In this document: positions 2,444 to 35,918 of the stretch, in pieces
How positions within the stretch are numbered: the first letter of the stretch is position 1
Layout of the letters: the number at the start of each line of letters is the position of its first letter
DNA from: Gammaproteobacteria bacterium
Lineage (GTDB): Bacteria > Pseudomonadota > Gammaproteobacteria > JAABTG01
Length of the DNA: 64,000 bases
NCBI GenBank assembly: GCA_034522055.1
Contig: JAXHLS010000002.1
Location: forward strand, 3,367,549-3,431,548
Direction: 5' to 3'
Program-made: the position numbers and the translations under genes
The notes under the pieces: model-generated
Database searches by the model: none
The model's input: only the letters and a program-made list of their open reading frames with translations
What the model was told of the DNA's origin: nothing

Positions 2444-2598
2444 CGAGCGAGGGAGTGGGAGGTGGGTGAAACCCACCTACTCGAACTGAACCGAGAGCCC
2501 GCAGGCGTTCGCAGTCAAGTGGACGGGCAATGAAGAGAAGGCGGCATATGCGGACCCGCCACCGATTTCGGCCGTTTATACGGGTCAGTCGATGCATG

Positions 2599-2605
2599 GT
2601 TGGGC
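2599..2605 (+). other. Candidate integron-type core site (GTTGGGC), 5' boundary of a cassette-like islet
   Basis: The heptamer GTTGGGC fits the attC R' consensus GTTRRRY. It is the exact reverse complement of the GCCCAAC box at 3874-3880 at the far end of the three-gene islet. In an inserted integron cassette the bases after the first G come from the cassette's own attC, so such a complementary pair is what a cassette would show. No integrase gene or attI is visible nearby. The remaining intergenic bases 2444-2629 hold no gene I can support. Confidence 0.4.
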
Positions 2606-2629
2606 TACAAGTACACGCAGAGTTAATAG

Positions 2630-2779
2630 ATGGCAACTAAGAAAAAATGGAAGGCGTCGAAAGACCCACTCTATAGAGGTGACGGGAGACAGTCAGTCTG
2701 CGTGCCGAGACCGGATGCAGATGATTCGATAGTGCGTCACGTTATGTATTTTGAAGACCCCGGAAGAGAAACGCCATAG
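2630..2779 (+). CDS. Small hypothetical protein (49 aa), first gene of an AT-rich islet
   Basis: An ATG-initiated frame of 49 codons starts MATKKKWKASKDPLY and ends ...FEDPGRETP. It is basic at the N-terminus and has no recognisable motif or membrane segment. It lies just inside the GTTGGGC box, and its TAG stop directly abuts the TTG start of the next frame, which suggests translational coupling. Codon usage and base composition match the two following genes and differ from flanking core genes. Function unknown. That it is a real gene rests on the tight packing with its neighbours. Confidence 0.5.
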   Translation: MATKKKWKASKDPLYRGDGRQSVCVPRPDADDSIVRHVMYFEDPGRETP

Positions 2780-3061
2780 TTGTCCACCTCAGAAGAATTC
2801 GAATTGGCTGAAAAGTTTTCAAATGGCGCTGTTTGGCAGACGCTTGTGAAAATCGCAAAAGCAGAAGCAGTTGGGCATATTAGTCGGGCAGAGCTATTAT
2901 CCTTAATAAAGGGGAACGGGAAAGGAAAAGCTAAATGGCTAAATGCATTTGAAGTTATGCAGGCACGCCGTTACGTGGAGCAATGGGGAGAACACTTGCT
3001 CGATTTTCGCGGAATAGGAGAACCTGCGCCTGTCATCAAAAAGATATTTGAGAAATCATGA
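2780..3061 (+). CDS. Hypothetical protein (93 aa), islet gene 2
   Basis: A 93-residue mainly helical protein starting at TTG (STSEEFELAEKFSNG...) and ending FEKS. It has no signal peptide or membrane segment, and I recognise no family. The start codon follows the previous stop without a gap and no ATG is available upstream in frame, so translation probably depends on coupling. The stop overlaps the ATG of the next gene by four bases (ATGA). The three genes therefore form one transcription unit. Composition is AT-rich compared with recR and the sulfotransferase gene. Function not assignable from sequence. Confidence 0.7.
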   Translation: MSTSEEFELAEKFSNGAVWQTLVKIAKAEAVGHISRAELLSLIKGNGKGKAKWLNAFEVMQARRYVEQWGEHLLDFRGIGEPAPVIKKIFEKS

Positions 3062-3891
3062 GACTTCACTCTTGTCAAAACTGTTGGTTTAACGGGCTTC
3101 AATACGGGGCGCTCGGCTTGGCTGTCGGATATTGTTCTAGGCATAAAAAAATACTAAACGTTGCAGATGGTACTACCTGCGGATTGCATTTAAGAAAAGA
3201 CCTCTCAGTTAACCGAGCAAAAGAAATTTCAATCGTTCATCATGAACACTACACGAGCGAATGTGTAAGTCGAATAGTAGACGCCGAGTGCTGTGAGCCT
3301 GATGTATCGGACAGTGATAAAGATAAAATTCATCTAAGAAAAGACGCTGTGGCCGGCGCGGCATTAGATTATGGCGAACTCGGATCAACTATTGAGTCGC
3401 TTGCTGAATTAAAGGCGTTGCCTGGCGCTCGGGCCGAGTTAGCAATGCTAAGCCTTGGTCGTGCGTATGTTTCCAACTGTATGTCAAGAAACGGAAAGTG
3501 GACTAGTGGTCTGCACATGTATTGGTGGAGCAGGGGGCGATTGGCAGATATGCCAGAAATTAAGGTCGAAGATTTACGGAGTGTTGGGGCAACAAATCTA
3601 GCTAGGCAATCTGATTTAACTGCATGGTCATTGGTGATGCTTCGTGTGACGTTTATTGAAGATATAACAACGTATGCAGGTCAGCAGAACGATCCCTTAG
3701 GAAAAGTTGACAGCTTGACGGAACAAGCTGCTTTATCTATGGATACATTCAATCTGCGTAATTTAAAGAAATGGTTAACAAATGAAGCAGCCCCTCAACT
3801 GGATGCGAGACTCTCTCATGATCGATACGTGGAACTGGCGACGAAGCTACACAAAGATCGAGAAAACGGCGAAGCCCAACAAGGCGCTTAA
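3058..3891 (+). CDS. Hypothetical protein with N-terminal Cys-rich motif (277 aa), islet gene 3
   Basis: The 277-residue product opens with a cysteine-containing segment (CQNCW, GYCSRHKK, then TTCGLH, residues about 6-42). These spaced cysteines and histidines could hold a zinc ion, but I do not recognise the family. The rest looks soluble and helical. The gene ends in AQQGA with its TAA inside the sequence GCCCAACAAGGCGCTTAAC, so its 3' end overlaps a half attC-like site. That is usual for integron cassette genes. It overlaps gene 2 by four bases. Function unknown; a stress or defence role would be speculation. Confidence 0.75.
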   Translation: MRLHSCQNCWFNGLQYGALGLAVGYCSRHKKILNVADGTTCGLHLRKDLSVNRAKEISIVHHEHYTSECVSRIVDAECCEPDVSDSDKDKIHLRKDAVAGAALDYGELGSTIESLAELKALPGARAELAMLSLGRAYVSNCMSRNGKWTSGLHMYWWSRGRLADMPEIKVEDLRSVGATNLARQSDLTAWSLVMLRVTFIEDITTYAGQQNDPLGKVDSLTEQAALSMDTFNLRNLKKWLTNEAAPQLDARLSHDRYVELATKLHKDRENGEAQQGA

Positions 3892-3905
3892 CTCGGCTGC
3901 TTCAG
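3874..3905 (+). other. Candidate attC left half (R'' GCCCAAC plus L''-like stretch)
   Basis: GCCCAAC at 3874-3880 matches the attC R'' consensus RYYYAAC. It is followed by AAGGCGCTTAACTCGGC, which resembles an L'' region, and by a small stem (CTGCTTCAGCG). I could not find the expected L'/R' half (ending GTTGGGC) downstream, so the site would be truncated. Its complement GTTGGGC at 2599 marks the other end of the islet. Confidence 0.4.
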
Positions 3906-4472
3906 CGAGAATCTCCTTTGTCGGCATCCTTCGAACCCCGACGAGTTGATGAATTTTCACCGCATTGTCAACCATCGGCCTCCCCGTCGCGTCTTCCGTC
4001 ATCTCCCCCTATCCCTTGTCTTGGCGAGAGCCTATGGTTCGTTGCGGAAAAACCAACCCGAAGGTGTGCCACGCCGCCATCATTTATCCGTGTGCATGAT
4101 ATGCTTAGCGCTCGCCGCGAGCGCAACATTCACCCACAGATTCTGCGCACGAGCCAAACGTAAGAATGCGTTTCAGCGGGCTCCGAATCGCGGCTTAGCC
4201 GAGCAACGGCCCGGCGACGCCGATGACGGTGATCAGCAGCCCGCGGGAGAGGTTGGTCACCACCACCGGGCGGGCGCGGGCCATGGCGCGCGCGGCTCGG
4301 GGCGTGTCCCCGTGTCTATGACGGAAACCAGCGGCGGTCACCGTGGTTGGCTGCACCGGGGCGGCTGCCTCCCCACCATGGTGTACCGGCATTCCCCACC
4401 CGGGGTGCGGGCTGCCCGAAGATGATAAGCTGACTGGCGATCCTCACCGTCGTTGACGCAACCCCTCTTCCA
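3906..4472. other. Intergenic stretch with no gene I can support
   Basis: About 570 bases separate the islet from the sulfotransferase operon. A minus-strand frame ending at 4195 (C-terminus ...NLSRGLLITVIGVAGPLLG) has a hydrophobic tail that could be the remnant of a membrane protein, but nothing upstream of it is convincing. The promoter of the sulfotransferase operon must lie near 4400-4472. I cannot point to clear -35/-10 boxes. Confidence 0.4.
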
Positions 4473-5729
4473 ATGCGTGAAGCCTTCATCCTCAGCCTGC
4501 GTTTGCACGGCCGCTGGCTCCGCGAGGCCCTTGGTCCACGGGGGCGGCAGGTGGCACCCCTCACTCCTTACCGGTTGCTGGTGCTGGCTCTCCTGCTGCC
4601 GGCTTACGCCCTGCTTCAGGCGGCACACTGGCTGGGCTTCGTGGCGGATGAACTGCTTTTCCCCGGCTACCGCAATGCCCCCGTGACGGCGCCGCTGTTC
4701 ATCACCGGTATCCCGCGCAGCGGCACCACCTTTGTCCACCGTGCACTGGCCGGGGACGAGGCGAGCTTCACTACCCTCCGCACCTGGGAAGCCTTGTTTG
4801 CACCCTCGGTAAGCGAGCGCCGGCTGCTCCGCGGCATCGCCCGGCTGGACGGGCTGCTGGGGCGTCCCCTGTGGCACCTGGCCGAGGCCGTCACGCGGCG
4901 CCTTACCGGCGGACTGGCCGCCATCCACGAGGTGGGCCTGGAGGCGGCGGAGGAGGACTATCTGACCCTGCTGCCGGCGGGGGGCTGCTTCATCCTGGTG
5001 CTGGCGTTCCCCGCCAGCCCTTCGCTGTGGCGCCTGGGGCGCCTGCAAGAGCTGCCGGCGCCGGAGCGGCGGGTGCTCGTCGACTTCTACCGGGCCTGCC
5101 TCCAGAAGCACCTCTATGCGGCGCCGCCGGGCCGCCGCCTGCTTTCCAAGAACGCGGCCTTCGGTTCCTGGCTCCCCGAACTGGCCACGCGCTTCCCCGA
5201 CGCCCGCTTCCTGGTTTGCGTGCGCGAGCCGGTGGAGGCCCTACGCTCCCAGCTGGGGGCGTTGCGAGGCGGCCTGGCGTTATTCGGCACCCTGCCGGCG
5301 GCCGATGCCGTGGCACGTGGGCTGAAGGCCAATGTCACCCACGCCTACGTAGTGCTGCGGGACTGTGGGCAGCGGCTTCCCGCCGGGCGCCTCGCGGTGA
5401 TCGACCAGGGGCGGCTGCGGGCGGCGCCCCGGGGTGAGCTGGAAGGGGCACTGGCGCGGCTGGGGGTGCCGGTGGTCCCGTCCCTGGAGGCAGCCCTGGA
5501 GGCGGCCCTGGAAGTAGCAAAGCGCCGGACGGGGGATGGTGAAGACAGGGGCCATCGTCACCCGCCGGTGACCGGCGGTGAGGACCCCGATCCGGGCCCG
5601 GTAGTCGCCCGCCTGCACCACGACCTGATCAACGGCATGGCCCCGCTGGGCCGTGAGTTCGACCATGAGTTGGACCATGAATTGGACCATGAGCCGAACA
5701 ATGAGCCGAGCAATGAGCCGCGCGATTGA
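4473..5729 (+). CDS. Sulfotransferase family protein
   Basis: The product (418 aa) is a PAPS-dependent sulfotransferase by its 5'-phosphosulfate loop (FITGIPRSGTTFVHRAL, about residues 75-91) and a later CVREP segment corresponding to the 3'-phosphate-binding region. The hydrophobic stretch LLVLALLLPAYALLQAAHWLGF (residues about 34-55, quoted in part by position) may anchor it to the membrane. The acceptor is unknown. The glycosyltransferase and deacetylase downstream suggest a surface glycan or glycolipid. The last about 20 residues are a degenerate Asp-His-Glu-Leu/Pro repeat produced by a 12-nt tandem repeat, which also forms the start region of the next gene in another frame. Confidence 0.85.
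   Translation: MREAFILSLRLHGRWLREALGPRGRQVAPLTPYRLLVLALLLPAYALLQAAHWLGFVADELLFPGYRNAPVTAPLFITGIPRSGTTFVHRALAGDEASFTTLRTWEALFAPSVSERRLLRGIARLDGLLGRPLWHLAEAVTRRLTGGLAAIHEVGLEAAEEDYLTLLPAGGCFILVLAFPASPSLWRLGRLQELPAPERRVLVDFYRACLQKHLYAAPPGRRLLSKNAAFGSWLPELATRFPDARFLVCVREPVEALRSQLGALRGGLALFGTLPAADAVARGLKANVTHAYVVLRDCGQRLPAGRLAVIDQGRLRAAPRGELEGALARLGVPVVPSLEAALEAALEVAKRRTGDGEDRGHRHPPVTGGEDPDPGPVVARLHHDLINGMAPLGREFDHELDHELDHEPNNEPSNEPRD
5653..5724 (+). repeat. 12-nt tandem repeat, six degenerate units, read in two frames
   Basis: Six consecutive 12-mers of the form (A/G)TGAGYYGNACC/G run from 5653 to 5724. In the sulfotransferase frame they encode a DHEL/NEP-type tail. In the +1 frame each unit begins with ATG (or GTG), giving the glycosyltransferase a series of six possible in-frame starts at 5653, 5665, 5677, 5689, 5701 and 5713. 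Change in unit number would alter both proteins without breaking either frame. Confidence 0.85.
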
Positions 5730-35069: not shown

Positions 35070-35918
35070 GACCCACCCCCAGTCCCGCGATCAGATCGGA
35101 CACCCCCTGCGCAGCGCCGCGCTGCTCGGGTACCCAATGCACGTAGCGCATCGTCGATTGCAGGTTGCCGTGGCCGAGCAGGCGTTGCAGCCGGTGGACC
35201 GGCAGGCCGCTCTCCAGTTGATGGGTCGCATAGGCGTGACGCAGGCTGTGGATGCCGCCGATCTTCTCCACTCTGGCCCGGTTCTTGGCGCGACCGAACA
35301 CCCGCTGGGCGCTGGCGATACTGAGAGGGGTCGTCGTATCGCTTCCGCTGGGAAAGAGCCACGTGGGGGGCGGTAAATCGCCCAGTAACGGCGCAGCGCG
35401 TGAAGCAGGCCGGGCGAAAGGGTGACCAGCCGGTCCTTCGCCCCCTTGCCCTGCTCGATGCGCAGCAGCCCGCGTTCGCCATCGATATCACGCACCCGCA
35501 CTCGCACCACCTCGCTCACCCGCAGGCCGCAGCCGTAGCAGGTCTGAAGCAGCATGCGGTGCTTGGGGTTGGTACACGCCACCAGAATGCGCCCCACCTC
35601 ATCGCGGGTCAGCAACTCGGGGATCCGTTGGGCCCGCTTCGGCATCACGAAGGACACATCGAACGACGGCCACTTCAGCACCTGCACATAGAGGAAGCGC
35701 ACCGCACCGTGGTGAACCCGGCAGGTCGAACCGGATAGCGAACGCTCGACGGCCAGATACCTGAACCAGGCCTCCAGCTCTTCGAGGCTCAACTGACTCG
35801 GCGAACGCCCGTAGTACCGCGCCAGGGCGGTAACCGCTGCCAGGTAACTCTGATGGGTACGCACTGAAAAGCCACGCTGGCGCATGGCATCAATCATCTG
35901 CTGACGCAAGGGTGTCAT
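35062..35918 (-). pseudogene. IS91-associated tyrosine recombinase with a frameshift in a C6 run
   Basis: The first frame (from 35918) has the core-binding domain and the first catalytic arginine (CYGCGLRVSEVVRVRV). The second frame has HSLRHAYATHQLESG (HxxR) and LGHGNLQSTMRYVHW with the His and the tyrosine nucleophile. They join if one C is added to the run of six G at 35365-35370 (plus strand): reading then goes IYRPP-TWLFPSGSD without a gap. This is either a one-base deletion, an assembly error, or a site where -1 slippage makes the full protein. Confidence 0.85.

Follow-up and report, generated by a model that had tools for sequence, protein, structure and literature searches.

A 64,000-nucleotide stretch of a gammaproteobacterial genome (C2:3367549-3431548; host genome 5.1 Mb, seven contigs), referred to below as the window, carries, after recR (1847-2443) and before the operon that starts at 4473, an islet spanning about 2599-3930 whose ends resemble those of an integron gene cassette, with no integron in its vicinity. 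The question that this locus raises is whether a cassette was once inserted here and what has since become of it. The G+C content of the islet is 0.458 (2603-3930) against 0.636 for the window, i.e. 46% in 64%, which marks it as an AT-rich insert, as sharply different from its surroundings as the initial annotation had claimed. That annotation had also placed GTTGGGC and GCCCAAC boxes at the two ends, with the last gene ending inside the R''/L'' stretch; both boxes are present, and the stop of gene B lies at 3891, 11 bases beyond the R'' box. The three coupled genes that it described were not borne out. The islet contains two genes, gene A and gene B, overlapping by ATGA, and the former ORF 1 (2630-2779) and ORF 2 (2780-3061), which form a single continuous frame in relatives, are the halves of one gene split by an in-frame TAG. 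The coordinates of the features are collected in Table 1.

Table 1. Features of the islet and its flanks, in window coordinates
Feature	Position	Strand	Basis
Left flank, resembling the 3' half of an attC (L' and R' side) up to the G^TT crossover	2540-2602	+	
R' box GTTGGGC, left boundary of the cassette	2599-2605	+	Same heptamer at the same offset in L048-L051
Gene A (earlier ORFs 1 and 2)	2630-3061	+	One open frame, about 143 aa, in relatives
In-frame TAG interrupting gene A	2777-2779	+	Sequence; intact copies in relatives
Gene B, 277 aa, Cys/His-rich N-terminus	3058-3891	+	12 relatives at 48-72% identity
GCCCAAC (R'' box), within the 3' end of gene B	3874-3880	+	Same place in L048-L051 and L056
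Right attC, truncated: R'', L'' and variable part kept, L' and R' missing	3874-3930	+	Homology to L150
Genomic repeat fused to the attC, minus its first ~15 bases	3931-4158	.	Start within a few bases of 3930

By itself the box pair proves little, because both heptamers are frequent in the window, where the plus strand holds 10 copies of GTTGGGC and four of GCCCAAC. RYYYAAC sites number 55 on both strands of the window, the hairpin starting at 3874 ranks 11th among them, and its energy per base was matched or beaten by 27 of 400 dinucleotide shuffles. Once relatives of the two genes are compared, the pair stands above chance.

Relatives of the gene pair in other genomes

A pattern scan of 84,980 species genomes returned 12 loci encoding relatives of gene B with 48-72% identity. 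In four of them (L048, L049, L050 and L051), GTTGGGC lies 31-32 bases 5' of gene A, compared with 31 in the window, and GCCCAAC falls within the 3' end of gene B. The records of these four loci, the only ones of the 12 with the left box, are labelled Desulfobacteraceae or Desulfobacterales, within Desulfobacterota. The right box is also found in L056, which is labelled KSB1, lacks the left box and has a shortened gene B. The flanks of L048 and L051 are near-identical, so that the independent loci with both boxes are three; L048/L051, L049, L050 and the window otherwise have flanks of their own, and the ends of the cassette are the same throughout, i.e. a unit with constant ends recurs in different surroundings. 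A covariance model of attC, built from 20 training sites (19 from integrons of the class and one from L048), showed the cassette to end at the right in a complete attC in three loci, L048 (48.5 bits, this site being itself a training row of the model), L049 (26.9 bits) and L050 (25.5 bits), and detected none for this cassette in L051 or L056. Scans of the relatives for strict R''/R' patterns found little because R' varies within an array, and a 70-base attC query returned only chance-level matches among plasmids. A literature search on gene cassettes with attC in Desulfobacterales found no paper.

The initial annotation had held that recurrence of the islet elsewhere without the box pair would tell against a cassette. 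This is half the case, as in seven of the 12 relatives the gene pair is found without the two boxes together and without GCCCAAC, one of these boxless loci (L052) having a different RYYYAAC close to where gene B ends. The gene pair is therefore not tied to integrons, and the module also travels outside recognisable cassettes. In a gene B tree of 12 rows, from which L051 and L056 were omitted for their shortened gene B and to which a plasmid copy was added, the window groups with L047-L050, all Desulfobacterota, with support of 98/99; L047 belongs to this clade, yet its gene pair lies outside a recognisable cassette. Among 369 genomes of the class, gene B occurs in the present genome only. On these comparisons, one cassette lineage is present in Desulfobacterota and in this gammaproteobacterium. 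An integron integrase above the family cut-off is encoded in the genomes of four of the 12 relatives, and weaker matches (E <= 1e-40) are found in three more.

The relatives also settle the structure of gene A. A frame of ~143 residues precedes gene B in 10 intact loci and, as aligned, in L056, its two ends matching ORFs 1 and 2, and L051 also has a gene A frame according to its listed frame; a three-gene cassette was ruled out by these loci. Gene A is still conserved on both sides of the TAG and differs from L047 and L049 mostly at third positions, and the interruption thus looks recent or else an assembly error.

Two minor observations concern individual relatives. In Desulfobacterales HSG2 (L049:2519-6888), the cassette lies 2.4 kb downstream of a recR identified by Pfam RecR domains and preceded by dnaX- and ybaB-like frames (read by eye), a proximity that is not seen in other relatives and may reflect chance or a shared insertion preference. 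The KSB1-labelled copy (L056:396-1583) is Desulfobacterales-like, with a gene A 92% identical to that of L049, pointing to transfer or mis-binning.

Boundaries of the islet and integron traces in the host genome

On the left, the cassette starts at the crossover of a GTTRRRY-type R' box at 2599. The preceding flank, 2540-2602, has one copy in the same genome (C2:903950-904012, 95%) and two in genome G231 (77%), and in a search of 369 genomes of the class at E <= 0.01 only three matched, namely the present genome, G231 and G233 (22 bases only). All four left-flank copies end in CAT[TG]GTT and then diverge (GGGC, GAAA, ATGC and ATGA), the pattern expected for the 3' half of an attC standing before different cassettes. 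The copy at C2:903950 forms the second half of a 122-nt site that starts with GCTCAAC and can be folded into one hairpin. Its score under the attC model, however, is only 4.8 bits, and 40 of 200 shuffles fold at least as well (z -0.85). The resemblance of the left flank to the 3' half of a long attC is only suggestive. Within the region of this copy (C2:902000-906000), a cassette-like gene stands behind the flank, followed by a weak attC (13.1 bits) and, by eye, a helicase-like gene; about 7 kb away, at C2:896281, is a lone attC of 24 bits.

On the right, an RYYYAAC-type R'' box at 3874 opens the attC in which the cassette ends. The attC model, run over 2500-4100 as the initial annotation had proposed, recognised no complete attC, and the right site scores 7.7 bits (E of 6.4 over 64 kb). 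Nevertheless, 3874-3930 can be aligned to L150 (C6:232082-232157), a complete attC elsewhere in the genome; the alignment scores 154, and the highest score among 2300 shuffled comparisons was 113. The L150 site continues with L' and ends in GTTGGGC, whereas the homology of the window stops near 3930, at the beginning of a genomic repeat of ~230 bp with 87% copies at C6:700224 and C2:887541 and shorter copies at C2:2044984 and C6:550381. The two 87% copies of the repeat start GTTGGGGTGAGCTTG or a near form, and the window copy lacks that start; the attC has therefore lost ~19 bases and the repeat ~15. Accordingly, 3874-3925 belongs to a longer site, now truncated, of which it holds R'', L'' and the variable part. 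The alternative that this stretch is by itself a short complete attC, forming a hairpin of 52-53 nt, was ruled out by the homology to L150 and by shuffles, which reached its energy in 98 of 400 cases and, for the 52-mer, in 10.5% of 1000; a separate shuffle comparison gave a z of -1.65. Folding energy is nonetheless a poor judge of attC here, as the attC of L049 has a z of only -1.10. A class-wide search with the right attC (369 genomes) gave short partial matches in four other genomes, none of which is an attC by the model. Elsewhere in the genome, the copies of the repeat at C6:700224, C2:887541, C2:2044984 and C6:550381 are intergenic, and their GTTGGGG...AACCCC hairpin start stands behind further GTAGGTCGGGCTTCAGCCCGACA-type hairpins.

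The statement that no integron is near holds for the neighbourhood of the islet but not for the genome as a whole. The attC model found at least 18 sites at E up to 10 and at least 15 at E<0.04, these counts being lower bounds since 150 of 7379 first-look candidates were scored; the sites at E<0.04 comprise at least seven within 20.5 kb of C6, at least seven on C2, where several are single or paired, and at least one on C4. The C6 sites form an array (C6:211682-232157) of at least seven attC at E<0.04 and two weaker ones, two of the sites each being present twice in identical form because the 2.06-kb stretch that holds them is duplicated at 99% identity, and no match to an integron integrase was found near it. 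The only match in the genome that includes the diagnostic C-terminal part of integron integrases is a C-terminal fragment at C2:1575537-1575896 (203 bits; cut-off 265), about 1.8 Mb from the islet. The ORFs on its N-terminal side presumably represent an IS66-type element. In G001, a genome of the same genus, an integron integrase is present in two frames and shares ~70% identity with the fragment across 88 residues, and 138 of the 369 genomes of the class encode an integrase above the cut-off. The window itself contains, at 35110-35903 on the minus strand, two adjacent tyrosine recombinase family matches in different frames, probably a broken recombinase, with five or so similar instances elsewhere in the genome.

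Origin of the islet and comparison with known systems

We interpret the islet as a single integron gene cassette that has decayed and become stranded, and assign this reading a probability of roughly 0.85. It is supported by the identical boxes and offsets around the A-B pair in L048-L051 and the right box in L056, by the complete attC sites of L048-L050 together with the homology of the right end to L150, by the termination of all left-flank copies at GTT, by the 15 or more genomic attC sites, the integrase fragment and the integrase of G001, by the low G+C of the islet, and by gene B, which groups with Desulfobacterota and is absent from the other genomes of the class. Of the original proposal of an integron-type cassette, the genes, boxes, offsets and complete attC sites recovered elsewhere (the latter in three loci) uphold the kind of element; its gene number was not confirmed, and the model recognised no complete attC in the window. 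Against this reading stand the failure of the attC model to recognise the window site and a hairpin within the range of shuffles; the seven relatives outside recognisable cassettes, including L047 of the same clade; and a left attC half that is only suggestive, three independent loci with both boxes, and the absence of an empty site among the genomes compared, G001 having recR followed by other genes and G003 and G004 aligning only to the recR end.

On this reading, an integron integrase would have placed a cassette carrying A-B, an operon of two genes, downstream of an attC-type site. The left junction would then be G^TTGGGC, and the right end would consist of the attC that the cassette brought with it, starting with GCCCAAC. 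Later the 3' end of this attC would have been lost in a fusion with the genomic repeat, gene A would have acquired its in-frame stop, and the genome would have retained only an integrase fragment. With the 3' end of the right attC lost, normal excision of the window copy is predicted to fail. The sequences themselves show the boundaries, the homologous cassettes in other genomes, the truncation, the stop codon, and the attC arrays and integrase fragment of the host genome; we infer that the integrase was the agent, that the events took this order and that excision was lost. Judged by its sequence, the window copy is derived from a cassette and is not an intact one.

Loot et al. reportedly described, in 2024, the insertion of single cassettes at attG sites. 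A related history with the same agent, in which the islet would be a single insertion at a non-classical attG-type (G^T) chromosomal site and not the remnant of an array, is possible but rather unlikely. The site would perhaps be GTTGGGG at the start of the genomic repeat: the repeat begins at the truncated right attC, its other copies start GTTGGGGTGAGC, one letter from R', and this resemblance of GTTGGGG to R' hints at a possible attG-type entry into the repeat. The single or paired attC sites on C2 are consistent with such an event. However, the left flank differs from the sequence that precedes the repeat elsewhere and resembles an attC half, and no empty site was found. The islet is like the attG insertions cited in PMC12444791 in that a cassette lies in the chromosome away from attI, and differs from them in its target site, which is unreadable, and in its attC-like left flank. 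The arrival of the two-gene module by plasmid, transposon or recombination, with attC-like boxes that are coincidental, is very improbable, because relatives have complete attC sites, the right end of the window is homologous to a true attC (L150) and the box offsets are identical in other genomes, although the module lies outside cassettes in seven of 12 relatives and also on a plasmid, and boxes alone are common.

Returning to the decayed cassette, its closest counterpart is the two-ORF integron cassette of PMC8618304, which likewise opens with R', carries R'' within the end of its final gene, is AT-rich and has two overlapping genes; in addition, homologous cassettes with complete attC exist elsewhere. 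The islet differs in its truncated right attC, its interrupted first gene, the lack of an adjoining integrase and a gene pair without a library family. It also resembles CALINs, i.e. clusters of attC without an integrase (PMC8618304, PMC12444791, PMC9668308), in being cassette DNA away from a complete integrase and in a host genome with other such sites. However, a CALIN needs at least two recognisable attC with no integrase nearby, and the islet, in which the model recognises none and which has two damaged halves only, does not qualify. According to these sources, attC clusters without integrase arise by off-target insertion, loss of intI or rearrangement (PMC8618304), Xanthomonas commonly carries CALINs at a distance from the integron (PMC12444791), and across Bacteria complete integrons are fewer than CALINs (PMC9668308). 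Since cassettes that lie apart from any integrase are common, the islet is an otherwise ordinary genome feature. What it offers is one cassette lineage in Desulfobacterota and a gammaproteobacterium. Here attC damage has apparently fixed the cassette in place, and its intact form is known and can serve for comparison.

Possible function of the gene pair

The kind of cassette is already known, and its gene family is nameless in the libraries searched. Neither gene A nor gene B matched a family in Pfam, NCBIfam or PADLOC; gene A gave nothing firm in PHROGs, Foldseek or VIA-align, and a sequence search of the PDB gave nothing firm for the proteins of the pair. No relatives were present in the viral contigs or phages searched. 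The two genes nevertheless form a conserved family that is amenable to bench testing.

Our guess, put at somewhat under even odds, is that A-B may be a small self-protecting unit, a toxin-antitoxin or anti-phage pair, disabled in the present genome. It is based on the frequency of such functions among two-gene cassettes and on the plasmid copy (Methylospira), which stands beside two toxin-antitoxin pairs, HicAB and ParDE. PMC8618304 describes two-ORF cassettes, some of them toxin-antitoxin systems. The L055 copy has a HamA-like gene (E of 5.8e-6) in its vicinity, and a PIN-domain gene lies close to that of L048; most other neighbourhoods consist of ordinary-looking genes (by eye).

AlphaFold gave a fair model of gene A (the best of five reaches a pLDDT of 76.8, the other four 45-54) and a poor model of gene B (pLDDT of 52.7). 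Foldseek returned no significant match to the gene A model, and among 83 chains compared by VIA-align the only row with Z >= 2 was Tpt1 (8tfi; Z of 4.6, rmsd of 3.3 over 80 residues), a Z below 8 being one that may reflect a common arrangement. Tpt1 is an RNA 2'-phosphotransferase, which we take to belong to the ADP-ribosyltransferase superfamily, and the invariant residues of gene A, R16, S52-T53 and E121, presumably follow the motif order of the R-S-E class. Together with the HicAB/ParDE, HamA-like and PIN-domain neighbours, the match to Tpt1 and these residues would fit an ADP-ribosyltransferase-like effector (Tpt1/KptA or R-S-E fold) with gene B as partner or antidote. This assignment is doubtful, since profile comparison with one KptA protein gave a probability of 0.1%, Foldseek returned nothing significant, no PADLOC family was matched, the Z is low and the neighbourhoods are mostly ordinary. 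It is improbable, though consistent with the loci compared here, that A-B is a toxin-antitoxin or anti-phage system not described so far, acting by NAD consumption or ADP-ribosylation and spreading across phyla as cassette and plasmid, with A switched off by the stop and B kept in the window.
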